Assembly: GCF_013112485.1 (NCBI RefSeq)
Contig: NZ_JABFHG010000003.1
Location: forward strand, 124,001-188,000
Reading direction: 5' to 3'
Length of the DNA: 64,000 nucleotides
DNA from: Roseicella sp. DB1501
GTDB lineage: Bacteria; Pseudomonadota; Alphaproteobacteria; Acetobacterales; Acetobacteraceae
The translations under genes were made by a program, and so were the position numbers. Shown here piece after piece: positions 1 to 28,300 of the stretch; position 1 is the stretch's first letter, and each line of letters opens with the position of its first letter. Below the pieces are notes generated by a model. The model saw nothing but the letters and a program-made list of their open reading frames with translations. It was not told the DNA's origin and ran no database searches.

Positions 1-509
1 TGCGCGAAGCTGGTGTCGCTCCGGCCGCTCACCTGCCATGCCCCCGTGAGGCCCGGCCGGACCGACATGTAGTCGTCGGCTGCACCCGCCGGCACGTAGT
101 ACTGATCGAGCTCTTCGCGCAGGACGGGACGCGGCCCGACCAGGCTCATCTCGCCGCGCAGCACGTTGATGAGCTGCGGCAGCTCATCGAGGCTCGTGGC
201 GCGCAGGATGCGGCCGATGCGCGTCACCCGCGGATCGGCGCGCAGCTTCCGCCGCTCGTTCCATTCGGCCCGGGCCTGCGGATCGCGCTCGAGCAGGGCC
301 TGCAGCGCCTGCTCGGCATCGATGCGCATGCTCCTGAACTTGAGGCAGCCGAAGACCCGGCCACCGCGGCCGATCCGCCGGTGGACGAAGAATACCGGAC
401 CGCCATCCGCCGCCACGCAGGCAGCAAGCAGCAGGAGCGCAGGCGCCAGAACCAACAGCAGGCCAGCGGCACCGACCACGTCCATTCCGCGCTTCACGGT
501 CGGGCGCAT
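1..509 (-). CDS. Polyprenyl-phosphate sugar-1-phosphate transferase (bacterial sugar transferase family), 3' end outside window
   Basis: The reading frame is open from an ATG at 509 to the left edge (169 residues visible). It reads MRPTVKRGMDVVGAAGLLLV with an N-terminal membrane helix, then the conserved family stretches KFRSMR, TSLDELPQLINVL, RGEMSLVGPRP and RPGLTGAWQVSGRSD. These are the hallmarks of the WcaJ/ExoY/PssY-type transferases that put the first sugar phosphate on undecaprenyl phosphate and so start exopolysaccharide repeat-unit synthesis at the inner membrane. A short GGAAAG lies just before the ATG. The protein looks like the short form: it has no long N-terminal multi-helix domain. 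It lies about 14 kb from the EPS block at 14.6-25.2 kb but plausibly supplies that pathway. The C-terminal end is not visible. Confidence 0.93.
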   Translation of the reverse strand, partial: MRPTVKRGMDVVGAAGLLLVLAPALLLLAACVAADGGPVFFVHRRIGRGGRVFGCLKFRSMRIDAEQALQALLERDPQARAEWNERRKLRADPRVTRIGRILRATSLDELPQLINVLRGEMSLVGPRPVLREELDQYYVPAGAADDYMSVRPGLTGAWQVSGRSDTSFA

Positions 510-1158
510 GGCTTTCCGGAGTCTGTAGTGCCACCGGAGATCTTGTTCTTGCGCCGTGTCGGAGGAGAAAGATGTATCGTGCGTCCAGGAGACTTGCGCC
601 ATTTCTTCCTCAGATCGGCAGGTTTGCTGCGACGCCATATAGCAGCGTATGCTCCCTCGATCAGCAATACACGAAAACCCCATCCCAATAACAAGGACCT
701 CATACACCGCCTAAAGGTTGAGTGACAGCAACCCTTTATCATTCCTCGGTGAGCAAAACGATCCGAGTTAGGACTCTTCACGGTTTCATACTGGTCGCCG
801 CGCGACCTCGCCAAACCACTGACAAGGCCAAGTTCTCACGCAATCACCGCGCAAATCGTTGCCGCCGCGACCTCACGATTACCGGCGGTGCTGCACCGCA
901 AAGGTCTCACTGTGTTGTCAATGCGTGCGGTCGAAGGGCCATGTCATGTCTCGAAAGGTGAACAGCGCCGTTCCACCGAGTGACGGGACTGCGGCGCCAT
1001 CACGCGATCGTGGGAATACAACCACGGGTGATGGCTTGAGAGGTTACGTAATCTTTTCATCGTCTACGATTGCGCTCCTGTAGACTATCTTTGGGCCGCA
1101 GACGACCACCCGTTGGTACCAGGCTCCGTTCCACGCCGCCTGCTACGAGAAGGACCTC
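510..1158. other. Intergenic region between divergent genes
   Basis: About 650 bases, visibly less GC-rich than the flanking genes, with no convincing coding frame. It must hold the promoters of the leftward sugar transferase and the rightward hydroxylase fusion. A perfect 6-bp inverted repeat, GTCTAC-N12-GTAGAC at 1062-1085, lies about 75 bases before the fusion gene start and could be an operator. TTACGTAA-like sequence at 1044-1051 is another small palindrome. No function is shown for either. Confidence 0.5.
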
Positions 1159-3339
1159 ATGACGCAACTTGCAGGTCTGGCCGAGACCATCGCCAGCAAG
1201 CTGACCGGCCCCAACGCCCTCGCTTTCGCCGCCGTGCTGGCGACGAGCCTGATCGCGTCGGTCGCGATGTACCTCTGGTCGCATCCAGGGCCGCGCGATC
1301 TCCGCAACTGGCTGCGCTTCGCCTTCCCGCGCGAGATCCTGACGCATCCCTCGGCCCGGGCGGACCTTTTCTTCTGGGTGACGCGCAAGCTGGTCATGCG
1401 GGTGATGTTCATCCCCGCCTCCGCCAGCGTCATCTTCGTGGTCGGCTACGCCACCGCCTCGCTGCTGAACCATGTGCTGGGCGGCGATTACCACGACGCC
1501 GCGCCGGCAGGTCCCTGGACGATCGTCTTCTTCACGATCACCGGCCTGCTCGCCTACGACCTATCCTATTACCTCTATCACCTCGCCCAGCACAAAATTC
1601 CCATCCTGTGGGAGTTACATAAGGTTCATCATTCGGCCGAGGTCATGGTGGGCATCACCAAGGATCGGATCCATCCGGTTGATGAGCTGATGAACCGGGT
1701 GTGGGACGGCCTCTTCGTCGGCGTCGTCTACGGCGTCTGGTACTACTTCGCCGTCGACCTCGTCGAGGCGACCGTCCTCGGCGTTAGCGTCTACGTGATC
1801 CGCAACATCCTGATGATGGATTTCATCCGGCACACGCATCTGCGCGTCTCCTTCGGGCCTCTCAATGGCGTGATCCTGTGCCCGCACTGGCATCAGCTGC
1901 ATCACAGCGTCAACCCGAAGCACTACGACCGCAATTTCGGCCTGCTGCTTTCGGTCTGGGACCGCATGTTCGGCACCGCCTGCGTGCCGGAACCCAATGA
2001 GCGCTTCGAATTCGGCATCGGGCCGCGCGAGGGACGGGAGTACCAGTCGCTGTACGGGCTCTACATCCTGCCGTTGCGGCGCATGGCGGAAACCGCGCTC
2101 TCCTGGTTCCGTCCGGCACCGCGGGCGCGGCAGGACGGGCTGACGCTCGAAATCGTCCGCGACTCCGCGCGCCTTGATGCGGTGCGGGAGGGCTGGGAGG
2201 CGCTTGAGCGCCGCGCCCAGGCCGATGTCTTCCAGTCGCATGCCTGGATCGCCGCCTGGTGGCGCGGCGGCGGCGAGACGCAGGGCTTCGATCTCCACAT
2301 CGCCCTCGCCTGGCGCGGCGCCGATCTGGTCGGTGTGCTGCCGCTGGTGGTGCAGCGGCGGCGCGGCCTGCGCATGCTCGGCTGGGCCGCGAATGACTGC
2401 ACGGATTATTGTGACGCCCTGCTGGCCCCCGGCCTGGCGGCCCCCACCGTGCTCGAAGCGCTCTGGCGCGAGGTCGAGCGGCAGGGCGGTTTTGACATCG
2501 CCAGCATCAACCATCTGCGGGCGAATGCGGCGGCGCGGGCCTTGCCGTCGCTCAGCCGGCGCGTGCGGCTGCAGCCGGACCGGCGGACCGTGCTGGCCAC
2601 CGGCGTGCGCCTCGATGCCTGGCGCGACTCCGCCGCCTTCTTCCAGGATCTCGGCAAGAAGGGCCGCAACAACGACCTGCGCGGCCGCCGCATCCTCGCC
2701 CAGACCGGGCCGGTGCGCTTCCGCACCGTCGAGGATCCCGCGGAACTCGCGCGGATCGTCGAGCAGATGCGGCTTCTGAAGACCGACTGGCTGAAGCGCG
2801 AGGGCCTGACCTCGCCCCTGCTTCAGGATGACGGCACGCTGCTGCGGGCGCTGATCGATGCGCTGGTGGCGAAGGGCAGCCTCCGGTTGATGGTGCTGGA
2901 GGCGGGTGACCGGCTCGCCGCAGGCCTCGTCAGCATGGTCGAGGGCCGGCGCCTGAGCGGCTTCCTCTCGGCCTTCGACCCCGAGTTCAACCGCGCCTCG
3001 CCCGGCACGCTGATCCTGGTGGACTATATCCGCTGGGCCATCGAGCACGGCTTCACCGAGGTCGACTTCCTGCGCGGCGACGAGAGCTACAAGGGGCGTC
3101 TCGCCAACCGGCAGGAGGTGCTCACCTCCTGCGTCGGGGCCGGCACGCTGCTCGGCCGGATGGCGATCGCGCTCGACCGCGCCCGCGCCGAGCGGCATCG
3201 GCTGCGGGACTGGCTGCAGGCCCGTCGCCAGCGGGCGCCGCAGCCCGCCGGCGAGGCCGGCATGGAGGCCAGCATGGCGCTTGGCGTCGGCGCGCCGCAT
3301 GGCGTGGCCATGTCGGAAGGGACGCACGCGACGCCCTGA
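1159..3339 (+). CDS. Fusion protein: membrane fatty-acid hydroxylase/sterol desaturase + CelD/FemAB-like GNAT acyltransferase
   Basis: A 726-residue protein that joins two unrelated enzymes. Residues about 20-300 are a membrane di-iron hydroxylase of the fatty acid hydroxylase superfamily. They carry several transmembrane helices and the expected histidine clusters H141LAQH145, H154KVHH158 and H245QLHH249, with an extra H225-x-H227. Residues about 335-675 match the GNAT-fold BcsL/CelD acetyltransferase family (Acetyltransf_6, FemAB-like), ending in the typical VDFLRGDESYK segment. The tail after about 690 is low complexity. The family knowledge implies O2-dependent C-hydroxylation of a lipid, plus acyl transfer to an amine or hydroxyl. 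Coupling both on one lipid or glycolipid is inference. The gene is flanked by a sugar transferase gene and the hpnL end of the hopanoid operon. Start ATG 1159 follows GAGAAGGACCTC. A repeat and a hairpin follow the stop codon. Confidence 0.85.
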   Translation: MTQLAGLAETIASKLTGPNALAFAAVLATSLIASVAMYLWSHPGPRDLRNWLRFAFPREILTHPSARADLFFWVTRKLVMRVMFIPASASVIFVVGYATASLLNHVLGGDYHDAAPAGPWTIVFFTITGLLAYDLSYYLYHLAQHKIPILWELHKVHHSAEVMVGITKDRIHPVDELMNRVWDGLFVGVVYGVWYYFAVDLVEATVLGVSVYVIRNILMMDFIRHTHLRVSFGPLNGVILCPHWHQLHHSVNPKHYDRNFGLLLSVWDRMFGTACVPEPNERFEFGIGPREGREYQSLYGLYILPLRRMAETALSWFRPAPRARQDGLTLEIVRDSARLDAVREGWEALERRAQADVFQSHAWIAAWWRGGGETQGFDLHIALAWRGADLVGVLPLVVQRRRGLRMLGWAANDCTDYCDALLAPGLAAPTVLEALWREVERQGGFDIASINHLRANAAARALPSLSRRVRLQPDRRTVLATGVRLDAWRDSAAFFQDLGKKGRNNDLRGRRILAQTGPVRFRTVEDPAELARIVEQMRLLKTDWLKREGLTSPLLQDDGTLLRALIDALVAKGSLRLMVLEAGDRLAAGLVSMVEGRRLSGFLSAFDPEFNRASPGTLILVDYIRWAIEHGFTEVDFLRGDESYKGRLANRQEVLTSCVGAGTLLGRMAIALDRARAERHRLRDWLQARRQRAPQPAGEAGMEASMALGVGAPHGVAMSEGTHATP

Positions 3340-14601: not shown

Positions 14602-16185
14602 TCAGCCGCCACGGCGCCGACGGTTGCGCTTGAAGTCTGCCACCTCGAAGCCGCTGCCACGGCCATAGGTGTGGAGGCCGGTATAGCCGCGCGGCGCGGC
14701 ATGGTGGGCGACCACCGTCTCGCGGTACCGCTCCCGCGACAATTCCTGGACCTCGCACCAGACCAACCCGGCGCCGTAGGAGGCCGTGCAGTCCTGAGCC
14801 GGCCGGAAGAGCCGCCCTTCCCACTCGACCAGCGGCCCCGCCGGCCGCGCGGTGCCGGGATCGAGCTTCACTGGATTGCCGGGATGCGGCACCCAGGGTC
14901 CTTCGAGCCGCTCACTGCTGAAGAGCGACAGCGTGTCGTGCGAGCAGCTGCCATATTCGGTCACCGCCGCGAACATCCACCACAGGCCAGTGCCGCGATC
15001 GAAATGCAGGGTGGTGTCGGCGGCTTCGATATCCTCAAGCAGCACCGAGCGCAGGCGCCAGCGATCGGGGAAGCGCTCCGCCTCCCAGAGCTGGATGGTG
15101 CGGTTCTCGCTGGATTCCGGGATCATCAGCACATCCTCGCCGACCCGGAAGACGAAGGGATAGGAGAGGTGGTAAGGCAGGGTCAGCGTCTCGACTGGCG
15201 CGCTGGCACGGCCCTCGGCATCGAGCACGACATGGCTGATCCGGCCGCGATGCGTCGCGTAGTCGTAATCCTCGAAGAAAATCGCCGTCACGTCCCCATG
15301 CGCGAAGATCACGGGGTCGGCGTAGAAGCGATCCGGGCTAGATTCGAGGATGCGGAAGCTCGCGGCATCGAGGGAGAGATCGAGCGGTGAGCCGGCACCC
15401 TGCTGCCGCCGATAGCCGAAGCACCAATCCTCGTAGCGCAGCAGAGGCTTGGTGAACTGCCGGCCGAATTTGGGCAGGGTGGCGGAGGCCAAGCGGCGCG
15501 GCCAGTAACCGGCGGCCGGCAGGCCGGCATCCGGATCGGGCAGCGGTGTCGGCTCCGGCAGCGGCCGGCCGGTCAGCAGATGCTCGGCGGCCAGGCAGAG
15601 CAGGGTGACGGCGCGGCCGAGGATGCTGTCGAGCGCATGCCCGAGCGCGTCGCGCTGCGGCACGGCGAGCCGTGCCCCGAGCAGCAGCCGGCTGGCCTCC
15701 GGCGTGCTGAGCAGCACGCCGAGATGCGGCGCCTCGCCGGCGAGCAGCGGCGCGGCGAGGCCGCCGGTCTCGAAGCGCCCGTGATGGAGCGGCGAAAGGG
15801 TCCAGGCTGTCCGCAGACTGTCTGGCAGGGATTTTGGATCCCGCCCGGTGGCGTTGACGACCAGCGCCGTCGGCGCGACGGCCGCGGCGGGCGGCAAGGC
15901 CGCCGTCGGCATCCAGGCGGCGAGGTCCTGCGCCGTGGTGCCGAAGAGGCGGCGCTCCATCGGCTCGGAGGGCAGGGGCAGTTCGGCCGGCAGCGGCACC
16001 GGCGAGCGCAGGAGGCGGACCGGCACGGACAGCCGCTGCCCGAGGGCTTCGGCGAGGCGCGGCAGCCAGGCCCGCATCCGGTCGGACGGCGCGAGGAGAA
16101 TGACTTCACCCGGTGCGGCGGCCTGGTGTGGCATCGGGCCGCTGGCCAGGGCGTCGCCGGCGAGGCGCGTGGCAGGCCCGCTCAT
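14602..16185 (-). CDS. Putative glycan-active protein with five-bladed-propeller-like domain (GINT1 N-terminal-like)
   Basis: About 527 residues from ATG 16185 (TTG 16230 and ATG 16134 are alternatives; none has a good ribosome site). The N-terminal 240 residues are not recognised with confidence; they resemble the N-terminal half of formyltransferase-like EPS proteins. The C-terminal 280 residues carry repeated blades with sugar-active-type stretches: RFYADPVIFAHGD, FFEDYDYATHRG, PYHLSYPFVFRVGEDVLMIPES and WWMFAAVTEYGS. They end at RPAQDCTASYG. This resembles the propeller domain found in glucosamine inositolphosphorylceramide transferase-like and GH43/GH32-like proteins. Catalysis is not shown. 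It is the last gene of the EPS block and probably modifies or assembles the polymer. Confidence 0.65.
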   Translation of the reverse strand: MSGPATRLAGDALASGPMPHQAAAPGEVILLAPSDRMRAWLPRLAEALGQRLSVPVRLLRSPVPLPAELPLPSEPMERRLFGTTAQDLAAWMPTAALPPAAAVAPTALVVNATGRDPKSLPDSLRTAWTLSPLHHGRFETGGLAAPLLAGEAPHLGVLLSTPEASRLLLGARLAVPQRDALGHALDSILGRAVTLLCLAAEHLLTGRPLPEPTPLPDPDAGLPAAGYWPRRLASATLPKFGRQFTKPLLRYEDWCFGYRRQQGAGSPLDLSLDAASFRILESSPDRFYADPVIFAHGDVTAIFFEDYDYATHRGRISHVVLDAEGRASAPVETLTLPYHLSYPFVFRVGEDVLMIPESSENRTIQLWEAERFPDRWRLRSVLLEDIEAADTTLHFDRGTGLWWMFAAVTEYGSCSHDTLSLFSSERLEGPWVPHPGNPVKLDPGTARPAGPLVEWEGRLFRPAQDCTASYGAGLVWCEVQELSRERYRETVVAHHAAPRGYTGLHTYGRGSGFEVADFKRNRRRRGG

Positions 16186-16315
16186 GCGGCAGGCGTGGTC
16201 AAGCGGGCATCGGCCCGCAGCATCGTCCAAGACATGTCGCTGCCCCTTCCCTCAGTAGCCTCACGATGGATGCGGGAGATATCGCGATGCGGATGCTGCT
16301 GGATGGGCCTCGTGG

Positions 16316-17053
16316 TCAGGCGCGGTGGATGCGTGGGCGGGGCAGGGACGGCCGGTTCAGGCGCATCGGCCGGAGCTTCTGCAGGGTCTGCTTCAACCGC
16401 AGGCGGAGCATCATGCGCAGCGACATGTCGCCGAGCCAGGTGCCCTCCCAGTGATGGATGCAGAGGGTCCGCGGCGAGATGTTCGACTGCAGCGGCTTCT
16501 GCTTCAGGACAGTGGAGCTGTAGGGATTATACGGATAGAAATAATCCTCCGGCAGCACCAATGCATCGTCGAAGCGATGCGTGGCCAGGAGGCGCGTCAC
16601 CATCTCGGGCAGCGGCTCGAAGCTCAGGGTGCCCGAGGCGGCCTCGGCATCGAGCTGCTCAAGGGCAAGCTTGAGGAAGCGATGGCCCTTCACCGCGCCG
16701 ATGACGCCAGCGCCGACACTGTCCGGCAGCTGCAGGCCGATGAAGAAGCGCGCGTCGAGGAGTTGGTCGAAGGGCTTCAGGGCCTCGACATCGGTATCGA
16801 GGTAAATGCCGCCATGCTCGTAGAGCACCTTCAGCCGCACGTAATCCGCCACGAAGGCAAATTTCCGCTGCCGGTAGGCCATGTCGATATAGGGGATGGA
16901 CCGATCGAGGCGCGTCTCGGTCCAGGCCTCGACCGTGTAGTCGGGCATGACCGCGCGCCACGTCTCCAGGCAATGCCGGCTGAGTTCGCTGATCGGGGAG
17001 CCGCCGAACCAACAATAATGTATCACCTTCGGGATACCGTTATCGTGTGTCAT
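16316..17053 (-). CDS. GT32-like glycosyltransferase (capsular/OCH1-like), copy A
   Basis: 245 residues. IPKVIHYCWFGGSP at the N-terminus, FAFVADYVRLKVLYEHGGIYLD and the metal-binding D-T-D of GIYLDTDVEAL are diagnostic of the Gly_transf_sug (PF04488) family of nucleotide-sugar transferases. GHRFLKLALEQL and the C-terminal IHHWEGTWLGDMSLRMMLR complete the fold. GGAGGCAAGG stands before ATG 17053. It is a paralogue of the next minus-strand gene upstream, with about half of residues identical by eye. The substrate sugar is unknown. 390 bases separate the two, so this copy may have its own promoter. Confidence 0.9.
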   Translation of the reverse strand: MTHDNGIPKVIHYCWFGGSPISELSRHCLETWRAVMPDYTVEAWTETRLDRSIPYIDMAYRQRKFAFVADYVRLKVLYEHGGIYLDTDVEALKPFDQLLDARFFIGLQLPDSVGAGVIGAVKGHRFLKLALEQLDAEAASGTLSFEPLPEMVTRLLATHRFDDALVLPEDYFYPYNPYSSTVLKQKPLQSNISPRTLCIHHWEGTWLGDMSLRMMLRLRLKQTLQKLRPMRLNRPSLPRPRIHRA

Positions 17054-17444
17054 CCGGCCTTGCCTCCCCCGACATCCGTCAATCCTCTTGGTGCAGCGCG
17101 CATAGGCGATATGTCCCGCATATTTGCCATTATAGGTTTCGCAGCGGGACGCGCATCTAAACTCACCTGTACTGATCTCATAATTACGTTACATGATTGG
17201 TAAGATATCCAAACTGCATCTTTCCGGCTGATTGGCACAAGCACATTACGGGCAGCCCAACCCAGTATTACGGAACGATATTGGGTCAGGAAATGACGCC
17301 GGTTGCGAAGACACCACACGGTGAGGCGGGCCAGCCGACCATTCATCGATGCGCGAGGCAACACCTCCCGGCCGTTGGCCGCCTCGCTTCTTCAACGCCG
17401 TCACCGGATTGCAGCAGGGCCAGGCTGATGCTCGCTGGCCGGTC
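17054..17444. other. Intergenic region between the two GT32 paralogues
   Basis: 390 bases with no supported gene. An AT-richer core around 17157-17215 contains ATAATTACGTTACATGATTGG, whose ACGTTACAT is shared with the palindrome at 21669-21683 in the same gene block. Likely promoter region for the downstream (leftward) gene pair. Confidence 0.45.
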
Positions 17445-18173
17445 TCAGGCGCTGAGGTGCTGGAACCGCAGGCTCGCCTTCCGCAGCGCGTTCTTGAGGC
17501 GCAGACCGACCATCATGCGCAGCGACATATCGCCGAGCCAGGTGCCTTCCCAGTGATGGATGCAGTAGGTCTTCGCCGAGATGTTGCACTGGAGCGGCTT
17601 CTTGCGCAGCGTCACCTCGCTATAGGGATTGTAGGGGTAGAAGTAATCCTCGGGGAAAATGTTCAGATCCTGGTGGCCATGCGACGCGACCAGCTCCGTC
17701 ACCAGCTCCGGCAAGGGCTGGAAGGTGAGCTTCCCCGTCATCGCCTCCTTGTCGAGGGCCTCCATCAGCAGGCGCAGGAAGGGATGCCCCTTGGCGCCGC
17801 CAATCACGCTGACGCCAACGCTGCCCGGCGATTGCAGGCCGAAGAACAGCGAGAGAGGCAGCAGCTCGTCCATCGACTGGACCGCTTCGATATCGGTGTC
17901 GAGATAGATGCCGCCGACATCGTAGAGGATCCGCAGTCGCATGTAGTCGGCGACGAAGGCGAATTTCTTCAGCTTGTACGCCGCTGCCACATAAGGGCTG
18001 TTGAGATCGAGCGCATTCTCGTCCCAGCGTCGGATCTCGTAGCCCGGCATGATGTCGCGCCAGGTCTGCAGGCAGCGCTGGCTGAGGCTGCTCAAAGGCG
18101 AGCCACCATACCAGCAGTAATGGATCTGCCGCGGGATTTGCTCCTGTTGAGCGGCGTGGTTTTCAGTGTTCAC
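17445..18173 (-). CDS. GT32-like glycosyltransferase (capsular/OCH1-like), copy B
   Basis: 242 residues if begun at GTG 18173, which has GAGGGG nine bases upstream. Motifs match copy A: IPRQIHYCWYGGSPLSSLSQ, FAFVADYMRLRILYDVGGIY, the D-T-D in YLDTDIEAV, FPEDYFYPYNPYSEV and IHHWEGTWLGDMSLRMM. In-frame alternative starts exist at ATG 18215 and ATG 18275. The latter overlaps the stop codon of the flippase gene (ATGA), but translation from it would cross a run of ten G bases before the conserved domain. The true start therefore decides whether the gene could vary by slippage. The gene is in the EPS block and transfers an unknown sugar. Confidence 0.88.
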   Translation of the reverse strand: MNTENHAAQQEQIPRQIHYCWYGGSPLSSLSQRCLQTWRDIMPGYEIRRWDENALDLNSPYVAAAYKLKKFAFVADYMRLRILYDVGGIYLDTDIEAVQSMDELLPLSLFFGLQSPGSVGVSVIGGAKGHPFLRLLMEALDKEAMTGKLTFQPLPELVTELVASHGHQDLNIFPEDYFYPYNPYSEVTLRKKPLQCNISAKTYCIHHWEGTWLGDMSLRMMVGLRLKNALRKASLRFQHLSA

Positions 18174-18271: not shown

Positions 18272-19735
18272 TCATTCCACCGGGAATGCGGTCCTGCCGC
18301 CTCGCAGGGTCGCGACGGTCTGGCTGATCTGCTGCCAGCGCGTCGCCGACATGATCGCTCCGTAGAAGATTGCCCCAAGTACGACGCCGACAGCAAGCAT
18401 GAGCGGTGCCGGCATGGTCGGGACGACCTTGGAGAGACACAGGATCACGAAGCCGCCCATGGCGAGCGACACGGCCAGGCATTGCGCGAGGGCACCGACG
18501 AAGCTTCGGATCCGGATGCCGAGGCAGGCGCGGAGCAGGACGGCATAGGTCGCCGCGACAAGCGATTCCCGGACCAGCAGCGCAAGGGCGATGCCGAGGA
18601 TGCCGAAGACGGCCATCGTCGCCAGCAACACGGCGCCGATCACGGCCGCCGCCATCTCGACGACGAGATAGAGCTTGGCGCGGCCGATCGCCGAGATGGC
18701 GGTGCCCGACATGATATTGAGCGCCAACGGGATGCCGCCGAGGGAGAGGAGCTGCAACAGCAATTCGCTCTGGCCCCAGGTCTTGCCGAAGAGCACGTGC
18801 ACGGCCTGCGGCGCGACGGCGGCGAGGCCGACAAAGGCCGGGAAGGCGACGAAGGCCAACCCCTCGAGGCTGCGGAGGAAATTCGTCCGCAGCTGCACCG
18901 GATTGCCCTGCAGCCTCGTATAGGTGACGAAGAACAGCTTCGAGGCCGGCGCCAGCAGCGTCGAGCCGACGGATTCGAAGATGCGCGCCGCGAGCTGATA
19001 GGCGCCGAGCACATCCGGCCCCCAGAGCCAGGCGATCAGCAGCCGGTCCATCTGGTTGCGGAGGAAGAAGGCGATCCGCTGGCCGCCGATCGCCGCGCAA
19101 TAGCCGTAGAGTTCGGTGACATGCCGGCGGGAGAAGCGGCCGACCGGCTGGCGGATGGCGCAGGCCAGGGCACCGGCGGCATAGACCACCTTCTCGGTGA
19201 GGAAGTAGGCGACGAGCGACCAGATGCCCCAGCCGAGCAGCATCAGCACAACGCCGATGGCGCAGCCCGACACCGCGCCCACCACCTGCAGCAGCGAGAT
19301 GAGATGGAAACGCGCCTGCCGCCGCAGCGTGCCGACATGCGCCGAGGCGATGCAGAGCAACGCGACGCTGCCGATCATCCAGGGCAGCACATGCGCCAGC
19401 TGCGGCACGGAGAACAGCGTCGCCAGGGGGCCCGAGGCGAGCACGCCGAGGAGCGTGAAGAGGGCCGCCAGCGCCGTCGCCATGCCGATGGCGGCGCCCA
19501 TATGCCCGTCTTCGAGCACGGCGCGCTGGACCACCGTCTCCGAGACCGCGTCGAAGACGCCGTATTCCAGCGCCAGCACCAGGGCGCTGGCCAAGGCGAA
19601 GACGCCGATCTCATCCGGCGCCAGCAGCCGCGCGGCCATGATGTAGAGGACCAGCGTCGATGCCTGACGCACCCAGGCCGCAGCCGATGACGACAGCAGG
19701 CCGGTCAGGACCTGCCGTGTCGAGATCGTGGTCAC
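18272..19735 (-). CDS. Polysaccharide/lipid-linked oligosaccharide flippase (Wzx-like, MOP superfamily)
   Basis: 487 residues beginning at GTG 19735 (MTTISTRQVLTGLLSSS). About twelve to fourteen helices with the MOP-family pattern: QASTLVLYIMAARLLAPDEIG, FALASALVLALEYGVFDAVS and GPDVLGAYQLAARIFE. Wzx-type proteins move undecaprenyl-linked repeat units across the inner membrane for polymerisation. It stands between a GT4 gene and two GT32 genes, which supports the role. The stop codon overlaps a potential downstream start by 4 bases. The next gene upstream ends 455 bases away, so a promoter may lie between. Confidence 0.9.
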   Translation of the reverse strand: MTTISTRQVLTGLLSSSAAAWVRQASTLVLYIMAARLLAPDEIGVFALASALVLALEYGVFDAVSETVVQRAVLEDGHMGAAIGMATALAALFTLLGVLASGPLATLFSVPQLAHVLPWMIGSVALLCIASAHVGTLRRQARFHLISLLQVVGAVSGCAIGVVLMLLGWGIWSLVAYFLTEKVVYAAGALACAIRQPVGRFSRRHVTELYGYCAAIGGQRIAFFLRNQMDRLLIAWLWGPDVLGAYQLAARIFESVGSTLLAPASKLFFVTYTRLQGNPVQLRTNFLRSLEGLAFVAFPAFVGLAAVAPQAVHVLFGKTWGQSELLLQLLSLGGIPLALNIMSGTAISAIGRAKLYLVVEMAAAVIGAVLLATMAVFGILGIALALLVRESLVAATYAVLLRACLGIRIRSFVGALAQCLAVSLAMGGFVILCLSKVVPTMPAPLMLAVGVVLGAIFYGAIMSATRWQQISQTVATLRGGRTAFPVE

Positions 19736-20189: not shown

Positions 20190-21482
20190 TCACGTCGCAT
20201 CGATCGTGGCGGTGCGCCAGGACGGGCGGGAGGGCGTGGCGGCTTCATAGACCGAGAGGATGTCCTCCACCATCTGCTGCACGCCGGCGGTCTCGCGGCG
20301 CGGCTGCCGTGCCGATTCCGCCATCGCCTCGCGCTGGGCGCCATCCGTCACGAGGGTGGCGAGACATGCGCCGAAGCGATCGACATCCTCGACCGGCACG
20401 CAATAGCCGTTATGTCCGTCGAGGATGAGGTCGGAGGCGCTGCCGGTCGCGGTGGTGATGACCGGCAGGCCGGCCGCCATTGCCTCCAGCAGGCTGTAGC
20501 TCGCCGCCTCGTAGCGGCTCGGCATGGCGAAGATGTCGAAGGCGCGCAGCAGCGGCTCCGCCGGGCGGGCGCCGAGCCAGAGCACCTTGGCGCCGATGCC
20601 GAGCGTCTCGGCCTGGCGCCGCGCCGCGGAGGCCAGTTCGCCATCGCCGATGACCACCAGCCGCGCCGGGGCCTCGGCCGGGACGCGGGCGAAGCAGTCG
20701 AGCAGCCGGTCGATGCCCTTCTGCTCGCTGAGCCGGCCGACGAAGCCGATGGCGACCTCCTCGTCGCGCAGGCCGATCTGCTGCCGCGCCGCCTCGCGCG
20801 GCAGGCAATTCGGCTCGCCGACCGTGTTCGGCACCAGGGCGAGGCGCGTGTCGCGGATGCCGAGGCGGCGGCATTCCTCGAACTCGGCCCGGCTGACGGC
20901 GATGATCTTGTCGGTCAGCCAGGACAGCGAGACCTCCGCCGTCTGATAGAGCTGCCGCATCCGCGGCGAGAGGTTCGGCGACATGGTGTAGATCGCGTGC
21001 GGCGTGTAGACGACGCGCGCGCCGAGACCGCTGGCGGCGAAGCGCGCCAGCAGCCCCGCCTTCGAGCTATGGCAATGCACGACGTCGAAGGGCCCGTGCT
21101 CGCGCATCACCCGACGCACCGCGAGCACCGCCTTGGCATCGGCCGGGTGCGGCCGGCTGCGCATCGTCACCACGCTCTGCCGCACATTGGGCAGGCGCGC
21201 GAGACGCTCGGTGAACACGCGGTCGCAACGACCCGAGGAATACACCACATGAACCTCGCAGCCCCGCTGCAGCAGGCCCTCCGTCAGGTCGAGCACGTGC
21301 CGGCCCACGCCGGTCGCCGCGCATTCCACGACCTGCAGGATGCGCGGCGGACGGCAGGCTTCCGCCGCGCTCGACTGCAGGCGCCGTGCCTCGGCCCGCC
21401 CGGCCCGGTCGGCCTGCGACGTCCTGAGCAACCAAGCCGCCGGAAGGGCGCGATCGGCGCGCACATCCATCATCCTTGCCAT
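20190..21482 (-). CDS. Glycosyltransferase family 4
   Basis: 430 residues from ATG 21482 (GGGGA seven bases upstream; a longer in-frame start at 21572 exists). N-terminal donor-proximal domain: PPRILQVVECAATGVGRHVL, which has the GTGGAARH-like Gly-rich loop, then FDVVHCHSSKAGLLARFAA and VVYTPHAIYTMSP. C-terminal domain: IGFVGRLSEQKGIDRLL, LVVIGDGEL and the E-x7-E motif in SRYEAASYSLLEAMAAGLPV. These are typical of retaining GT-B enzymes that extend the lipid-linked repeat unit. It belongs to the EPS block; the linkage formed is unknown. About 970 bases of non-coding DNA lie upstream. Confidence 0.92.
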   Translation of the reverse strand: MARMMDVRADRALPAAWLLRTSQADRAGRAEARRLQSSAAEACRPPRILQVVECAATGVGRHVLDLTEGLLQRGCEVHVVYSSGRCDRVFTERLARLPNVRQSVVTMRSRPHPADAKAVLAVRRVMREHGPFDVVHCHSSKAGLLARFAASGLGARVVYTPHAIYTMSPNLSPRMRQLYQTAEVSLSWLTDKIIAVSRAEFEECRRLGIRDTRLALVPNTVGEPNCLPREAARQQIGLRDEEVAIGFVGRLSEQKGIDRLLDCFARVPAEAPARLVVIGDGELASAARRQAETLGIGAKVLWLGARPAEPLLRAFDIFAMPSRYEAASYSLLEAMAAGLPVITTATGSASDLILDGHNGYCVPVEDVDRFGACLATLVTDGAQREAMAESARQPRRETAGVQQMVEDILSVYEAATPSRPSWRTATIDAT

Positions 21483-22458
21483 CACACTATCCCCGCGATC
21501 ACTGAGCGAGCGAGCTCGTCCAAGCCACAATCGCGCCGCATTTGGACTGCCGGACTGTATTCGCCACAACAAACAATAACTTTACCGCTTTCAACTAACA
21601 GCAACAATAATCAGCGGTTGAGGGGTCGCTAGCCTGCACAAGTATAACGAAATCACGCGAACTGAAGTGATGTACGTTACATCTCTGTGACCAGACGTGA
21701 CGAACCTCGAATCCAAACCGCACGGATAAAGCTCTCCCAAGAGTCTTGCACCTCATGGTTGAAAGGCGCTCCGGTTTTCACCTGTTGCGTCATGCGCTGA
21801 GAATCGTTGCTGTGATGAAGGTGACCGCCCGGCCCACGGCTCCCTTCCATATCCCGCGGCGGCGCCCTACGCCGCTACAACCACGGCCCCGCTCACCAGT
21901 TGCCGCGTCCGCCATCCCGTCACCCGACGGAGCGGGGACAGTCACGCGAAGTTCGGACGATTCCTCCGCATTGCGCAGACTGCCATGTTGGCGCGGCGGC
22001 AAACGACTTGCACCCTGTCCATCTCTGGCGGCATGCGAACCGCGGCAAGCTGGTCGTGCACCGGATGCCTCCTACGGCGTGTGCGCCTCTCTCCTCATGA
22101 TTTCGGCATGGCGTGCCATCCAGCAGCCTGCCGCCGCGCATCCCGCGCAGACAAACCCGAGCTTGTCGCCCACCGGCATGCCTGAGCTTGGCAGTGACAC
22201 GGCTTGGCACCGATTCTCTCGCGCAGCGTGCCGGTCAGGTCAATGCAATTGCTGCACTGCAACCGATGCCAATCGTGTTAGCGGAACCTCTTAAGGACGT
22301 GATGTCACATCGCGCCATAAAGCGTTATCCCCACGGCGCAAGCCGGCGAGACGTTTCGAACCTGTGGCGGGGCCGCGCGGTTCATGCCCTGGTCAGGCCA
22401 AGCGATTGCAAAGCCTCGCTGCCCGATCGGCGGCGTCCAGCCGATCGGGCTCTGCCGC
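21483..22458. other. Long intergenic region in the EPS block
   Basis: About 975 bases with no gene I can support; it is the longest such stretch in the window. The part nearest the GT4 gene (21540-21720) is AT-rich for this genome and is the likely promoter. A perfect inverted repeat GATGTA-CGT-TACATC lies at 21669-21683, and GATGT-C-ACATC lies at 22301-22311. Both could bind a regulator. Small open frames on both strands (60-180 codons) have no recognisable domains. Confidence 0.5.
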
Positions 22459-23934
22459 CTATGCCATCCGGCGCCGGAGCTGCGCATCGATGGCAGGCGG
22501 CGCTTGGCGCGGCGTGCCGGGCGCCGGGCGGCGCGGCTGCATCGGCAGCCCGAGCCCGATGCCCATGGCGATCCAGCCGCCGAAGAAGCGGAAGCTGTCG
22601 ATGCTGAGCCCGAGCAGCAGCACACCCAGCAAGGTCATGCCCACGGCGAAATGCATGTCGCGCAGGCTGGCGTCGAGCGCCTGGTTACGCGCGCTGCGGA
22701 AGGCCCGCAGGGTCAGCGTGCCGATGAAGCCGAGCCAGACGAGGTAGCCGAGGATCCCGGTTTCCGACAGCAGGCGCGCATGGATCGAGTAGCTCGGTGG
22801 CCACTTGATGTTACCGTCGTCGATGTATTCGCGCACCTCCCAGCTGCGGAGATCATCGGCCCGGATGTAATCGGGATAATGATAGCCGAACTGGCCGAAG
22901 CCCACGCCGAGGAGCGGCCGTGACCGGAACATGGACAAGGCGGAGCGGATGCCGACCGAGCGGGTGATGTTCGAGGTGTTCTCGTCGCTGTCGGTCTCGA
23001 TCGGCTTCGGCGTGCCGTACTCGATGAGGTTCGTCACCAGGGTGGCGGTGCTCTGGTAGAAGCCGGTATTGCCGGCGAGGAGCACGACCGCCACGCCGAG
23101 CCCGGCCAGGGCATAGACCACCTTGTCCATCCGCGACTGGGCATGGGCCCAGAAGACGATGACGAACTGGATGCCGACCACGAGCATCGCCGTGCGGGAC
23201 TGGGCGAGGATGACCAGGACGAGGGCCAGCGGCGCGTAGAAGCGCGAGGCGTTGCGCTCACCTGGCAGCCGGACGACGGCGAAGGGCAGGAAAAAGCTCA
23301 GCAGCGCGCCCGCCCAGGAGACCTCGAAGGCCGTCATGCGGAGCCGTTCCACGTAGACCGGGCCGGAATCCGAGTGGATGACGTTCGCAAGCGCCGTGTG
23401 GATATCCGTCAGCCCCGGCACCGAGTACCAGGAGGCGAACTCCAGCACGCCCATGAACGCCATCACCAGGATGGCGCCGCGCGCGCCCTTCACTACGGCG
23501 GTGACCATGCCGATCCGCGCGACCCGGTAGTAGACGATGATGATCAGGACGCCGAAGGCGAGGATCATGCTCTGGGTGAGGATGCGCCCGACGCCGGAAC
23601 GGCCCTTGAAGAAGGCGTTCGAGATCTCGCCGAAATTCATGGCGATGCCGGCGAGCACGACGAGGCTGAAGGCCAGGACGAAGCGCGCCACCGGCTGCGG
23701 GATCTCGAGCCCGCCCTCCCAGAGCATCAGGCGCAGCATGAGGATCGGCAGGATCAGGATGAACGCGTCGTGCGCGATCTCACCCAGCGGCAGGAACTCG
23801 ACGAGGTCGTTGAAGGCGACCAGCACAATGGAGAGGGCGATCAGCGCCGCGGTCACGCCGGTGCGGGCCGCCGGCCTGGCCTGCGGTTGGGAGCGTGCGA
23901 GCGGCGGGCGCATTGCCCCGAGTTCTATGGCCAA
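22459..23934 (-). CDS. O-antigen ligase/polymerase family protein (Wzy_C-like)
   Basis: 491 residues from TTG 23934 (GGAG eight bases upstream) or 484 from ATG 23913. About eleven helices, a large periplasmic loop (residues about 320-400: PKPIETDSDENTSNITRSVG, GVGFGQFGYHYPDYIRADDL) and the conserved H-x-R-L-L-S-E-T-G-I-LGY segment (SIHARLLSETGILGYLVWLG). This segment is typical of the O-antigen ligase/WaaL/Wzy superfamily, which joins or polymerises lipid-linked glycans at the outer face of the inner membrane. Together with the flippase it suggests a Wzx/Wzy-type EPS route, though no chain-length regulator or export protein (Wzc/Wza) is in the window. Confidence 0.88.
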   Translation of the reverse strand: MAIELGAMRPPLARSQPQARPAARTGVTAALIALSIVLVAFNDLVEFLPLGEIAHDAFILILPILMLRLMLWEGGLEIPQPVARFVLAFSLVVLAGIAMNFGEISNAFFKGRSGVGRILTQSMILAFGVLIIIVYYRVARIGMVTAVVKGARGAILVMAFMGVLEFASWYSVPGLTDIHTALANVIHSDSGPVYVERLRMTAFEVSWAGALLSFFLPFAVVRLPGERNASRFYAPLALVLVILAQSRTAMLVVGIQFVIVFWAHAQSRMDKVVYALAGLGVAVVLLAGNTGFYQSTATLVTNLIEYGTPKPIETDSDENTSNITRSVGIRSALSMFRSRPLLGVGFGQFGYHYPDYIRADDLRSWEVREYIDDGNIKWPPSYSIHARLLSETGILGYLVWLGFIGTLTLRAFRSARNQALDASLRDMHFAVGMTLLGVLLLGLSIDSFRFFGGWIAMGIGLGLPMQPRRPAPGTPRQAPPAIDAQLRRRMA

Positions 23935-24087: not shown

Positions 24088-25200
24088 TCATGGCGCTGCG
24101 GCCACCGGATCCACCCGGGGGCGTGGCCGCTGCTGCCGTAGCAGCAGCAGGATCGGCTTCTCGAGCGCGTAATAGACGGCGATGGAGACGCCCATGGCGA
24201 AGATGCTCGCCGCGATCACGAAAGCCCAAGGGTCGTCGATACGCAGCCAGCGCCAGAGGATGGCGAAGATGTTGATCGAGAAGGGGTGCGACAGGTAGAG
24301 CGAGTAGGAGGCGTCGCCCCCGAGGCGCAGCCACCGCCCGATCGGACCGATCCGGGCCGGCTGGCTGCCCAGGATCAGGCCGGCGGCCAGCAGCAGGCTC
24401 GGCAACCCGTTGCGGATCAGGCGGGATGGCGTCTCGAAGGGTGCGCGGTCCGGCGCGATATGCGCCATGGCCGAGAAGCCGAAGGCAATCGTCAGCACGA
24501 CCGCAGCGCCGACCAGCAGGGCGCGCGTCGGCATCGGCAGCCGCCAGCCTCTGGAATAGAGCATGGCCAGGCCGATGCCGAGGAGGAACTCCAGGATGAT
24601 CGGGCTGCCCCAGAAGTGCAGCGGCCAGACCGTGGCGGGCACGAGCATGCCAAGCAGGATCAGGCCGGCGAAGGCGGCCAGCAGGACGGCGATGCCGGTC
24701 TTCCGCTCGAAGCGCAGGGCCAGGGCGAAGACGGCGTAGAACAGCATCTCGAAATTCAGGGTCCAGCCAAGGGCGAGGACCGGCAGCAACTCGCCCGAAG
24801 GGCCAGGCCAGGGCAGGAAGAAGAAGGAGGCGATGATGTGCTGCGGGCTGGACATGCCGGCGGTGACGCGCCCCGGCATCAGGGTCAGCGCCGCGATCAT
24901 CGCCAGGGTGAAGCACCAGTAGAGCGGCACCACGCGCAGGATGCGGCGGCTCATGAACTTGCCCGGCGCGCCGCGGCGACCGAATTCGTCCTTGCCGATC
25001 AGGTACATGATGAAGCCGCTGATGATGAAGAACAGGTCGACGCCCATTCCCCAGTCGATCGCCGACAGCAGGCCGAAGGTATCCGGCCTGGCATAGCCCA
25101 GCTCCATCGCCTCATGCTGGACATGGCCGAACAGGACCACGCTGGCGGCGATGAAGCGCAGCACCTGCACGTTGTGTAAGATGGATCGCGGCTCTGTCAT
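24088..25200 (-). CDS. Membrane acyltransferase family 3 (OafA/YrhL-like)
   Basis: 370 residues from ATG 25200. About ten helices; the N-terminal family motif is present (ILHNVQVLRFIAASVVLFGH, with conserved R and H) and so is FFIISGFIMY further on. These proteins O-acylate sugars on membrane-linked or periplasmic glycans. As the first gene of the leftward EPS block it likely adds acetyl or succinyl groups to the polymer. The 490-base region to the divergent glycosidase gene carries the promoters of both. Confidence 0.9.
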   Translation of the reverse strand: MTEPRSILHNVQVLRFIAASVVLFGHVQHEAMELGYARPDTFGLLSAIDWGMGVDLFFIISGFIMYLIGKDEFGRRGAPGKFMSRRILRVVPLYWCFTLAMIAALTLMPGRVTAGMSSPQHIIASFFFLPWPGPSGELLPVLALGWTLNFEMLFYAVFALALRFERKTGIAVLLAAFAGLILLGMLVPATVWPLHFWGSPIILEFLLGIGLAMLYSRGWRLPMPTRALLVGAAVVLTIAFGFSAMAHIAPDRAPFETPSRLIRNGLPSLLLAAGLILGSQPARIGPIGRWLRLGGDASYSLYLSHPFSINIFAILWRWLRIDDPWAFVIAASIFAMGVSIAVYYALEKPILLLLRQQRPRPRVDPVAAAP

Positions 25201-25687
25201 CGACGTCTCTGAGCAGTGGCAGCCATGTCGATGCGTGTGCCACAGGCACAATCACTCCGACAATGACGCGCTGCGTGATTCCATGTCACGTTCAGTCTCC
25301 CTGCATGAACGGCGCGTGATGGCCGGCTCGTGCCCGCGCCGACGCGACGGTTCAGCATCCCGTGAGAACCGGCTTCCCGGGGCCATGCCATTGCCGCCAT
25401 GCCCGTCGCGCCCGGTGGGCTTGGACGCGAGGGCGCTGGGCAGAGGCAGCATCAACCATGGATGGACGGCGGGGGGCTGGAGCGGAGGTCATGGGTGGCC
25501 AGCGGACAGTCCGGGTCCGGAAGAATAAGCGATCACCGCACCGACAGCAAAATTATTGATTGACAATGATCATAACTGATCCGTGATTTTTTCTTTGTGG
25601 TTGTAAAATCGTCGTGTTAGTCGTGCTGGAGCCTGAGTTATTCAACCATAAGTGGAAGCTCAGGCCTTCCAACGGAGGCAAACACGC
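25201..25687. other. Divergent promoter region, acyltransferase / glycosidase
   Basis: 487 bases, no gene. The right part (25540-25640) is AT-rich and contains TTGACA (25560-25565) followed at 17-18 bases only by a poor -10 match, so a sigma70-type promoter is possible but not firm. A leader hairpin lies at 25628-25670 immediately before the glycosidase ribosome site. Confidence 0.45.
25628..25670 (+). promoter_or_regulatory. 5' leader hairpin before the RTX-type glycosidase gene
   Basis: GCCTGAG (25631-25637) pairs with CTCAGGC (25659-25665). Three further pairs extend the base across a 2-base bulge, around a 21-base AT-rich loop. The stem ends 3-4 bases before the GGAGG ribosome site (25674-25678), where it could affect translation. 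Confidence 0.5.
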
Positions 25688-28300
25688 ATGGCAGTTTCCT
25701 CGACCCTGGGCTCGCTCGGCTTCGCCACGCCGCTCGGCGAGCTGACGGGAGGCACCGATGCCCAGCTGGCCGCCGAGCTGGCGGACTACAAGGCAGCCGG
25801 CGCGACCTGGGTCCGTACCGATTTCTGGTGGGACCTGGTGAAGCCGACCGCCAATGGCGGCTATGACTGGTCGACCCTCGATCGGGTGGTGAACGCAGCG
25901 AACGCCCAGGGACTGAAGGTGATCGGCGAGCTGCTCGGCCTGCCCTCCTGGGTCATCAACAGCGGCGGCGTCGCGGGCAATGTCTCGGCCTATGCCGGCT
26001 TCGCCAAGGCCGCCGCCGAGCATTTCGGCGACAAGGTCGACTACTGGGAAGTCTGGAACGAGCAGAACCTCTCCGGCTTCTGGGGCGGCCAGCCCGACGC
26101 CGCGGCCTATACCCAGATCCTCAAGGCCGCCTACACCGCCATCAAATCCGTCGATGCCGACGACTTCGTCATCTCCGGTGGCCTCTCCCCCGCCCCGGAT
26201 TCAGGCAGCGGCTGGCAGAGCGCCGTCTCCTTCCTGCAGCAGATGTACGCCAACGGCGCCGCGGACTATTTCGATGCCCTCGGCTTCCACCCCTATTCCT
26301 GGCCGCTCATGCCGAACAACACGGCATCCTGGAACGGCTTCCAGATCATGCAGACCGGCATCCGCGACCTGATGGTCGCCAACGGCGATGCCGACAAGCA
26401 GATCTGGATGACCGAGTTCGGCGCCCCGACCGATGGCGGCAGCGGCGCCGTCAGCGAGGCCGACCAGGCCACGATGCTGCAGCAGGCCATCACCTTCCAG
26501 CAGAACACCGCCTGGGCCGGCCCGCTCCTCTACTACTCCTACCAGGATCGCGGCAGCGGCAGCTGGTCCGGCTACTCCACCGAGAGCTTCTTCGGCCTCA
26601 TCCGCACCGATGGCTCGCACAAGGCCGCCTACGACGTGTTCAAGAACGGCGCCGGAACCATAACCCCCGGTACGGACACCACGCCGATCACCAAGACCCT
26701 CGGCAGCGGCAGCGACACGCTGGTGCTGAAGATCTCGCAGGAAGCCTATCAGGGCAGCGCGCAATACACCATCGCGGTGGTCGACGGCAAGCAGATCGGC
26801 GACACCCAGACCGCCGGCGCCCTCTACAAGAGCGGCGATGACACCATCACCGTGAAGGGCGACTGGGGCGCGGGCAACCACACCGTGACCGTGACCTTCC
26901 TCAACGACATCTGGGGCGGCTCCGCCGACAAGGACCGCAACCTGCATGTCGACGGCATCACCTTCAACAACACCGCGCTCGCCAGCGGCACCGCGACGCT
27001 CGGTGCGAACGGCCCGGCCAACTTCACCTTCACCAAGGCCGCGGTCGATACCAACGGCGCCATCACCAAGACCCTCGGCACCGGCAGCGACACGCTGGTG
27101 CTGAAGATCTCGCAGGAAGCCTATCAGGGCAGCGCGCAATACACCATCGCGGTCGACGGCAAGCAGATCGGCGACACCCAGACCGCCGGCGCCCTCTACA
27201 AGAGCGGCGATGACACCATCACCGTGAAGGGCGACTGGGGCGCGGGCAACCACACCGTGACCGTGACCTTCCTCAACGATATCTGGGGCGGCTCCGCCGA
27301 CAAGGACCGCAACCTGCATGTCGACGGCATCACCTTCAACGGCACCGCGCTCGCCAGCGGCACCGCGACGCTCGGCGCGAACGGCCCGGCCAACTTCACC
27401 TTCGCCAAATCCTCTGGCACGAGCAACGATACCGCGCCGGCCATGCAGTTCGGCACCGTCGGAACCTGGGGGCAGGACAGCAAGGTCTCGGAGAGCCACC
27501 TCACCTATGGCGGCCAGGACTACCACGCCTTCCGCGCCACCGCCTCCTGGGGCACGGTCGACACCGTGAAATCCGCGCCGGCCAGCTGGGCGGCGACGAA
27601 CAACACGCATCTCGCGGTCGACAATTTCAAGCAGGTGCAGCTCGATCTCCGCGCGGCGGGCAGCACCGGGCTCGACGTCATGGCGGTCGCCGCGAAGGGC
27701 GGCGCCATCACGACCGGCAATGGTAACGACCTCATCACCTGGCTGGCCCATACCGATGCCTCGGGCTCGGGCAACACCATGCTCATCACCACCGGGTCCG
27801 GCAACGACACCGTCAAGGTCACCGCGGCCAGCGTCTCCACGCTCGATCAGTACGATACGAGCAACAATGGCAGCCTGTTCAACGCTGGTTACAACGGCAA
27901 ATACTCAACCGCCGATGTCTATGTCGGCCCTGGCACCGACACCGTCACCGTGGAGGGCACCGTCCGCCTGGTGCTGCATGCCGGCGCCGGCGCGGTGACG
28001 GCGACGGGCGGGGCTGCCTCCGACAGCTTCTTCCTCGGCAAGGGCACGGCCGACCTGACCGGCGGCGTCGGCAACGACCTCTACATCATCACCCAGGACA
28101 GCGGCCATGCGGTGATCGAGGACTTCGCCTCGGGCAGCGACAAGCTGCGCTTCACGGGCATCGCCTCGGGCAGCGTGACCACCAGGCTGGCGACCGAGAA
28201 CGGCGTCTCCGGCCTCAAGGTCACCTATGACTCGGCCGGCGACAACGTCTTCCTCGCGCATGTGACGAAGATCGCCGCCGCCGACATGGTCTTCGCCTGA
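25688..28300 (+). CDS. Secreted clan GH-A glycosidase with two carbohydrate-binding modules and RTX-like C-terminus
   Basis: 870 residues with no Sec signal. The catalytic (beta/alpha)8 domain spans residues 1-320. The general acid/base is E125 in YWEVWNEQN and the nucleophile is E243 in WMTEFGAPTDGG. This is the arrangement of clan GH-A, and the fold resembles PslG-type (GH39-like) polysaccharide endoglycosidases. Residues about 334-451 and 459-574 are two near-identical Ca-dependent CBM36/60-like modules (each with GSDTLVLKISQEAYQGSAQY, NDIWGGSADKDRNLHVDGI). The last 300 residues have Gly/Asp-rich repeats (TGSGNDTV, GGVGNDLY) ending in a hydrophobic tail, as in type I secretion substrates. 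It lies beside the EPS block, so release or trimming of its own EPS is plausible. No type I exporter is in the window. GGAGG precedes the ATG. Confidence 0.88.
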   Translation: MAVSSTLGSLGFATPLGELTGGTDAQLAAELADYKAAGATWVRTDFWWDLVKPTANGGYDWSTLDRVVNAANAQGLKVIGELLGLPSWVINSGGVAGNVSAYAGFAKAAAEHFGDKVDYWEVWNEQNLSGFWGGQPDAAAYTQILKAAYTAIKSVDADDFVISGGLSPAPDSGSGWQSAVSFLQQMYANGAADYFDALGFHPYSWPLMPNNTASWNGFQIMQTGIRDLMVANGDADKQIWMTEFGAPTDGGSGAVSEADQATMLQQAITFQQNTAWAGPLLYYSYQDRGSGSWSGYSTESFFGLIRTDGSHKAAYDVFKNGAGTITPGTDTTPITKTLGSGSDTLVLKISQEAYQGSAQYTIAVVDGKQIGDTQTAGALYKSGDDTITVKGDWGAGNHTVTVTFLNDIWGGSADKDRNLHVDGITFNNTALASGTATLGANGPANFTFTKAAVDTNGAITKTLGTGSDTLVLKISQEAYQGSAQYTIAVDGKQIGDTQTAGALYKSGDDTITVKGDWGAGNHTVTVTFLNDIWGGSADKDRNLHVDGITFNGTALASGTATLGANGPANFTFAKSSGTSNDTAPAMQFGTVGTWGQDSKVSESHLTYGGQDYHAFRATASWGTVDTVKSAPASWAATNNTHLAVDNFKQVQLDLRAAGSTGLDVMAVAAKGGAITTGNGNDLITWLAHTDASGSGNTMLITTGSGNDTVKVTAASVSTLDQYDTSNNGSLFNAGYNGKYSTADVYVGPGTDTVTVEGTVRLVLHAGAGAVTATGGAASDSFFLGKGTADLTGGVGNDLYIITQDSGHAVIEDFASGSDKLRFTGIASGSVTTRLATENGVSGLKVTYDSAGDNVFLAHVTKIAAADMVFA
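26687..27409 (+). repeat. Near-identical tandem duplication of a CBM-coding segment
   Basis: Two copies, starting at 26687 and 27062 (period 375 bases), each about 350 bases. By eye they are almost identical at DNA level. Copy 1 carries one extra GTG codon (AVVDGKQ versus AVDGKQ). Such identity, including synonymous positions, means recent duplication or ongoing gene conversion. Confidence 0.9.

Follow-up and report, generated by a model that had tools for sequence, protein, structure and literature searches.

According to the paper describing it (PMC5362036), HfsK (CC3689) of Caulobacter crescentus is a tandem GNAT protein whose nearest solved homologue is FemX and which modifies the holdfast polysaccharide. 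The same paper reports that HfsK homologues are linked to exopolysaccharide (EPS) genes, that HfsK appears to be active in its membrane-bound form, that it stayed fully functional when joined to a foreign transmembrane helix, and that a C-terminal extension, tied to c-di-GMP, is needed for membrane binding and activity. HfsK-type GNATs set the cohesiveness of the adhesin, and the paper gives the attached group as not known. For the sphingolipids of Caulobacter, PMC11324152 reports that one amide-linked chain is the substrate of both an N-acyltransferase and a separate DesA-type hydroxylase. Searches of open-licence PubMed Central papers turned up no description of a hydroxylase-GNAT pair or fusion, and the main text of PMC11340318 mentions neither hydroxylase nor sterol desaturase, GNAT or HfsK.

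Here we describe a gene that is the fused variant of a conserved and apparently undescribed hydroxylase-GNAT pair, tied to EPS genes in about half of its loci. It lies in the window, by which we mean the whole 64,000-nucleotide stretch of Roseicella sp. DB1501 DNA analysed. The open reading frame (1159-3339, + strand) starts with ATG, has no internal stop and counts 726 codons. Its parts are as follows.

1159..3339, + strand: fused gene, 726 aa, membrane FA_hydroxylase-type (presumed di-iron) enzyme plus tandem GNAT (open reading frame, Pfam)
1159..2094, + strand: hydroxylase half, residues 1-312, with hydrophobic helices and His clusters (PF04116, invariant His, hydropathy, model)
2095..2142, + strand: linker, about residues 313-328, at the position of the stop/start junction in split relatives
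2143..3234, + strand: tandem-GNAT half, about residues 329-692 (GNAT domains about 328-674), predicted FemX fold (PF13480, model)
3148..3234, + strand: Arg-rich C-terminal helix, residues 664-692, extending beyond the FemX-like core (DSSP of the model)

In a Pfam search of the fused protein at E ≤ 0.01, PF04116 and PF13480 were the only matches, and the LPG_synthase_TM domain was not found. FA_hydroxylase (PF04116) matches residues 127-273 (E 5.2e-19, 69.4 bits vs a cut-off of 31) and Acetyltransf_6 (PF13480) matches residues 501-645 (E 1.5e-31, 110 bits vs a cut-off of 22). Pfam detects only the second GNAT domain of the C-terminal half, which is a double (tandem) GNAT. The His clusters of the FA_hydroxylase family form a two-iron binding site. 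Ten motif histidines of the fusion (H141, H145, H154, H157, H158, H172, H225, H245, H248 and H249) are each conserved in 95/95 rows of the subfamily alignment, the window included, and H227 and H255 in 94/95 and 93/95, respectively. The sequence-only reading had claimed a true 726-residue fusion with both halves intact and had proposed a profile search of each half; both profiles score above their cut-offs and the ten histidines are invariant, in agreement with that claim. Two NCBIfam comparisons gave weak scores: 51.5 bits between the hydroxylase half and OlsE, which rules out OlsE membership given the equivalog cut-off of 475, and 22.3 bits between the GNAT half and BspF (cut-off 775). The G+C content is 0.63 in the hydroxylase half, 0.72 in the GNAT half and 0.57 in the upstream gap; the window is mostly at 0.66-0.77.

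The AlphaFold model of the fusion has a mean pLDDT of 87.5 and a pTM of 0.67, and the ten-residue blocks of residues 331-690 all score 89-98. The alignment used for structure modelling had 69 rows (four of the 72 listed were left out and L128 was added). The GNAT half (residues 331-678) resembles FemX of Weissella (Z 21.8, rmsd 4.1, 304 aligned, 12% identity), FemA (Z 20.0, 8% identity) and the aminoacyltransferase domain of MprF/LPGS (Z 15.7-17.5). Initially, this half had been taken as GNAT/FemAB-like; its acyltransferase core is indeed intact, and the assignment is now corrected to a tandem GNAT of predicted FemX fold. The FemX alignments stop at residues 671-678, and the Arg-rich helix 664-692 continues. 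When the hydroxylase half alone was modelled (pLDDT 89.1), a Foldseek search with it gave no matches at E ≤ 0.001. In a second structure comparison (VIA), the top match was the hydroxylase domain of Scs7p, a sphingolipid fatty-acid hydroxylase; its scores are weak (Z 6.4 and 5.3; rmsd 4.6 over 167 aligned residues at Z 6.4), and unrelated rows reach at most 3.9. The best hit of a whole-protein sequence search of solved structures had an E of 0.092, which is not meaningful.

A possibility raised at the outset was that the gene is an assembly chimera of two ordinary neighbours. This is ruled out, because Roseicella frigidaeris carries the same fusion (89% identity over 726 aa) and Roseomonas sp. 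E05 (G227) a more distant fused form (57% identity); these are the fused loci L048 and L051/L128. Comparison of the two Roseicella copies gives dN/dS values of 0.10 for the hydroxylase half, 0.24 for the GNAT half and 0.19 for the linker (residues 310-328), and the tail (residues 681-726; 0.69) is the only loose part. Both halves of the fused protein are thus under purifying selection.

Outside these genomes, the two enzymes are usually encoded by adjacent genes. Genome contigs were scanned with a hydroxylase-led alignment, and the best 80 of 134 loci, ranked on match quality, were kept. Hydroxylase and GNAT lie side by side in all 80, split in 78 and fused in 2, a count that is biased toward complete pairs because the best 80 of 134 were kept by match quality. 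By title, the genera among these best 80 of 134 loci include Mesorhizobium (39), Methylobacterium (15), Bosea (5), Devosia (5) and Rhizobium (3). In 63 of the 77 scored split pairs, start and stop codons overlap by 4 nt (NTGA), and in the other 14 the start codon lies within 15 nt. Locus L052, one of the 78 split loci, was not scored for overlap, its GNAT frame being apparently broken. Only a short GNAT piece was matched there, and at L052:11038-12120, on a plasmid of Rhizobium sp. 32-5/1, parts of the GNAT fall in different frames, which suggests a broken gene or a sequencing error. Because the ranking of the 80 loci favours complete pairs, an order sample of 395 genomes was added, in which the two best candidates per genome were scored. 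A hydroxylase of at least 45% identity was found in 11 of the 395 genomes, and all 11 have the pair, split in 8 and fused in 3. Five of the 11 also carry a second, lone hydroxylase, with the GNAT absent within the fetched 10-12 kb. In a class-wide sample, only 1 of 385 genomes, the window's own, had the hydroxylase half at E ≤ 1e-60. The distribution of this hydroxylase subfamily is patchy. The early assumption that the two enzymes normally act separately is contradicted by these data, as they are neighbours in 78 of the best 80 of 134 loci, mostly as overlapping genes, and fused in the other 2. The profile of fused versus separate forms, which the sequence-only reading had proposed, is supplied by the two counts, 78 split against 2 fused among the best 80 of 134 loci and 8 against 3 in the order sample.

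The three fused rows form one clade (SH-aLRT support 99) in the hydroxylase tree, which was built from 41 of 95 distinct rows after a 90% identity cut. In the GNAT tree (39 of 94 rows after an 80% identity cut), the lone GNATs of two genomes, G228 and G274, form a clade with the three fused rows (support 99); the branch that nests them beside Roseicella has a support of 86 and was not starred. No hydroxylase of the paired kind is present in G228 and G274, the best match being 36% over half of the domain. Perhaps the hydroxylase was lost after fusion in these two genomes, or fusion took place repeatedly, or their GNATs belong to a sister line that was never fused.

The surroundings of the pair often include polysaccharide genes. 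Genes of eleven polysaccharide families were counted with tblastn probes taken from pair loci, relatives and the window, and 20 regions of 20 kb from Acetobacteraceae genomes only, not genus-matched, served as controls; the pair loci are 4.9-22 kb long, 13 of the 80 being under 18 kb. At least two EPS families lie in the fetched stretch of 43/80 pair loci (best 80 of 134) vs 1/20 controls, and at least one in 45/80 (best 80 of 134) vs 2/20, a contrast that is indicative only because of the origin of the probes, the unmatched controls and the short loci. Outside Mesorhizobium, 32 of 41 pair loci have at least two families, and within Mesorhizobium 11 of 39; none of the eleven probed families was found at 28 of the 39 Mesorhizobium loci. 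In this genus the pair often lies beside M23/YhdP-like genes (18 loci; M23 by Pfam, YhdP below the cut-off) or beside TlyA/DXS-like genes named by eye (10 loci). On plasmids of Shinella sp. HZN7 and of Rhizobium rhizoryzae, one stretch of about 14 kb carries both the pair (annotated as 'sterol desaturase family protein' and 'GNAT family N-acetyltransferase') and genes for GumC, VpsF, glycosyltransferases and a cellulase-family hydrolase. Alphaproteobacterial EPS clusters repeatedly contain the GINT1_N domain (glucosamine inositolphosphorylceramide transferase 1, N-terminal), and one neighbour cluster comprises 23 loci.

Both halves are also found alone. Four lone-GNAT loci were found, those of G228 and G274 with six EPS families each, and L040 and L042 with none. 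The G228/G274 operon encodes a priming transferase, a Wzx-type flippase, the GNAT, Gly_transf_sug, GINT1_N, Wzz and GH5; that of Roseomonas sp. E05 encodes a priming transferase, Wzx, the fusion, Gly_transf_sug and GINT1_N, with the fusion in the place of the GNAT. Within this group, every such operon has the GNAT, and the hydroxylase is optional. At five lone-hydroxylase loci (L163-L167, all of one genus), neither the GNAT nor the EPS families were found in the fetched 10-12 kb; therefore, the hydroxylase subfamily can also work elsewhere. Other oxidoreductases are seen nearby. In G316 and G386 the gene order is Acyl_transf_3, GT4, GMC oxidoreductase, hydroxylase and GNAT, and a gene for a GMC-type FAD oxidoreductase lies immediately upstream of the pair at three Acetobacteraceae loci (L171:6566-8269, L172:7092-8795 and L173:2573-4276); a further oxidation step by this enzyme is possible. 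A Pyr_redox/FAD oxidoreductase of the 'GPYGLSLAAHL' type occurs near 4 of the 5 lone hydroxylases (L163, L165, L166 and L167), as well as near one hydroxylase-GNAT pair and one lone GNAT (L172 and L042, respectively), and may serve as electron donor.

The window itself has the following polysaccharide genes.

3..707, - strand: priming sugar transferase (PF02397, E 1.3e-58), divergent neighbour of the fusion, running off the left edge of the window
L034:11551-13986, outside the window: Wzz-type co-polymerase/ATPase gene, after the priming transferase
14602..16230, - strand: GINT1_N-domain gene of the polysaccharide cluster (PF24793, E 1e-33); the same family adjoins the pair in relatives
16316..18140, - strand: two Gly_transf_sug glycosyltransferase genes (16319-17053 and 17484-18140)
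18275-19735, - strand: Wzx-type flippase
20193-21572, - strand: GT4
22462-23934, - strand: Wzy_C
24091-25251, - strand: Acyl_transf_3

The main EPS genes (14.6-25.3 kb) are 11 kb away from the fusion, with the hpn genes in between. The surroundings fit a polysaccharide reading. At 25652-29730, two glycoside-hydrolase-like genes terminate the EPS cluster; one contains two CBM60 stretches, and the other matches GH5 weakly, under the cut-off.

We consider it somewhat better than an even bet (roughly 55%) that the fusion is a membrane-tethered, HfsK-like modifier of a lipid-linked EPS precursor, coupled to an O2-dependent C-H hydroxylase. In favour are the conserved and mostly overlapping gene pair, the EPS families around it, the lone GNATs in the G228/G274 operon, the predicted FemX fold and the parallel with HfsK; against it speak the 28 Mesorhizobium loci and the five lone-hydroxylase loci at which none of the probed EPS families was found, the lone GNATs L040 and L042, and the 11 kb between the fusion and the main EPS genes of the window. 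The gene would then be the one-chain version of a two-enzyme module for EPS precursor modification. The HfsK/FemX-like GNAT half, an acyl- or aminoacyltransferase using acyl-CoA/ACP or aminoacyl-tRNA as putative donor, would act at the cytoplasmic face of the membrane, its acceptor most likely being an amino or hydroxyl group of the polyprenyl-diphosphate-linked repeat unit begun by the neighbouring priming transferase. The N-terminal di-iron hydroxylase would oxidise a C-H bond of that substrate in a portion buried in the membrane; the simplest candidate is the acyl chain attached by the GNAT, in which case acylation would precede hydroxylation. The product would then be exported through the Wzx/Wzy route, and the benefit of fusion might be tethering or channelling. 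The chemistry of this scheme has a precedent, since the Caulobacter sphingolipid N-acyltransferase and hydroxylase are reported to share one chain as substrate (PMC11324152).

The sequence-only reading had proposed a hydroxylated, acylated lipid or lipid-linked sugar as the product, and had noted the position next to the hopanoid head-group operon. It was right that a priming-transferase gene (PF02397) and hopanoid genes are the neighbours, as hpnI, J, K and L were all confirmed. On this view, the fusion might work with hpnI-L, its target being the head group of hopanoids or a sugar linked to them, and hpnL does adjoin it both in the window and in R. frigidaeris. However, the fusion is transcribed in the opposite direction to the hpn genes, and among the best 80 of 134 pair loci hpnI-L match in the fetched stretch of just one, that of R. 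frigidaeris. Moreover, hpnI-L are also present in G323, a genome of the same genus (HpnL 89%), but there the neighbour of hpnL is an SDR-like gene (named by eye) in place of the fusion; the best match to the hydroxylase half in the G323 genome is merely 30-32% over part of it, and G112, also of this genus, is likewise without the fused hydroxylase. Synteny thus speaks against a hopanoid head-group role, which we rejected as very improbable, and the adjacency to hpn appears to be incidental. At L174 of G323, RND-efflux-like genes (named by eye) from the 32-38 kb part of the window adjoin hpnL; the hpn surroundings have therefore undergone rearrangement in this genus. Of the product first proposed, a hydroxylated and acylated lipid-linked sugar remains a reasonable guess; the hopanoid tie was not borne out, as EPS genes recur instead. 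The original lipid/hopanoid interpretation is therefore largely replaced.

A lipid product could also arise in another way. The module may make a hydroxylated N-acyl membrane lipid, the GNAT acylating an amino lipid head or a sphingoid-like amine and the hydroxylase acting on the amide-linked chain, on the model of CerS and the CC_0202 hydroxylase, as proposed for Caulobacter sphingolipids in PMC11324152. Besides this precedent, the low-scoring OlsE match of the hydroxylase half (51.5 bits), the Scs7p match that stands out in structure (Z 6.4) and the Mesorhizobium pairs lying away from EPS genes are consistent with such a lipid. We regard it as unlikely, given that the OlsE score is far under the curated cut-off of 475, that sphingolipid or ornithine-lipid genes were not recognised among the Pfam-scanned neighbour families (a minority of the neighbours), and that EPS genes recur instead. 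It is also conceivable that the two activities are chemically independent and merely share a promoter or a membrane tether, the GNAT acting on EPS and the hydroxylase on a separate lipid. The GNAT without hydroxylase in G228 and G274 and the hydroxylase without GNAT at L163-L167 favour this view, but the start/stop overlap in 63/77 scored split pairs and the purifying selection on both halves of the fused forms argue against it. Pairwise identities of hydroxylase and GNAT are also correlated across loci (r 0.92 over 88 loci), although shared ancestry accounts for much of this. Independence of the two activities is, in our opinion, quite improbable.

If the EPS precursor is the substrate, the module could represent an undescribed EPS decoration: an overlapping gene pair in Hyphomicrobiales and Acetobacterales, fused in Roseicella/Roseomonas, that equips polyprenyl-linked repeat units, before their export, with an acyl or aminoacyl group bearing a hydroxyl. 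We put this forward tentatively. If true, adhesin chemistry would be made oxygen-responsive by an O2-dependent hydroxylase. The pair occurs in legume symbionts and other plant-associated bacteria (Mesorhizobium, Methylobacterium, Bosea, Devosia), for whose attachment EPS is important, and the fusion offers a single protein for purification and testing. As the fused partner of the GNAT is a membrane hydroxylase, the substrate of HfsK-type enzymes should have a hydroxylatable, membrane-embedded part.

Several known proteins share one half or the general layout of the fusion. The membrane part of MprF is an LPG_synthase_TM-type domain. In MprF/lysyl-phosphatidylglycerol synthase, too, a single chain runs from a membrane domain into a cytosolic tandem GNAT, but the membrane part of the fusion is an FA_hydroxylase rather than LPG_synthase_TM. 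The FemX/FemA peptidoglycan aminoacyltransferases have the same arrangement of two GNAT domains; they differ in sequence, the GNAT half being 12% and 8% identical to them, respectively, and in the alphaproteobacterial EPS context found here. OlsE, Scs7p and other FA_hydroxylase or sterol desaturase-like enzymes share PF04116 and the set of His motifs, whereas the hydroxylase described here has a tandem GNAT as fusion or gene partner, frequently within EPS clusters. The likeness to HfsK is in the tandem, FemX-like GNAT half and in the EPS linkage of about half of the pair loci. By its position, the helix 664-692 past the FemX core may be the counterpart of the membrane/c-di-GMP extension of HfsK (PMC5362036). 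Unlike HfsK, which that paper presents as a soluble protein binding the membrane reversibly under the control of c-di-GMP, the GNAT here is joined to, or gene-coupled with, a membrane hydroxylase. In a sense, nature does the same as the engineered transmembrane anchor in the HfsK experiment of that paper, with an enzyme as the anchor.
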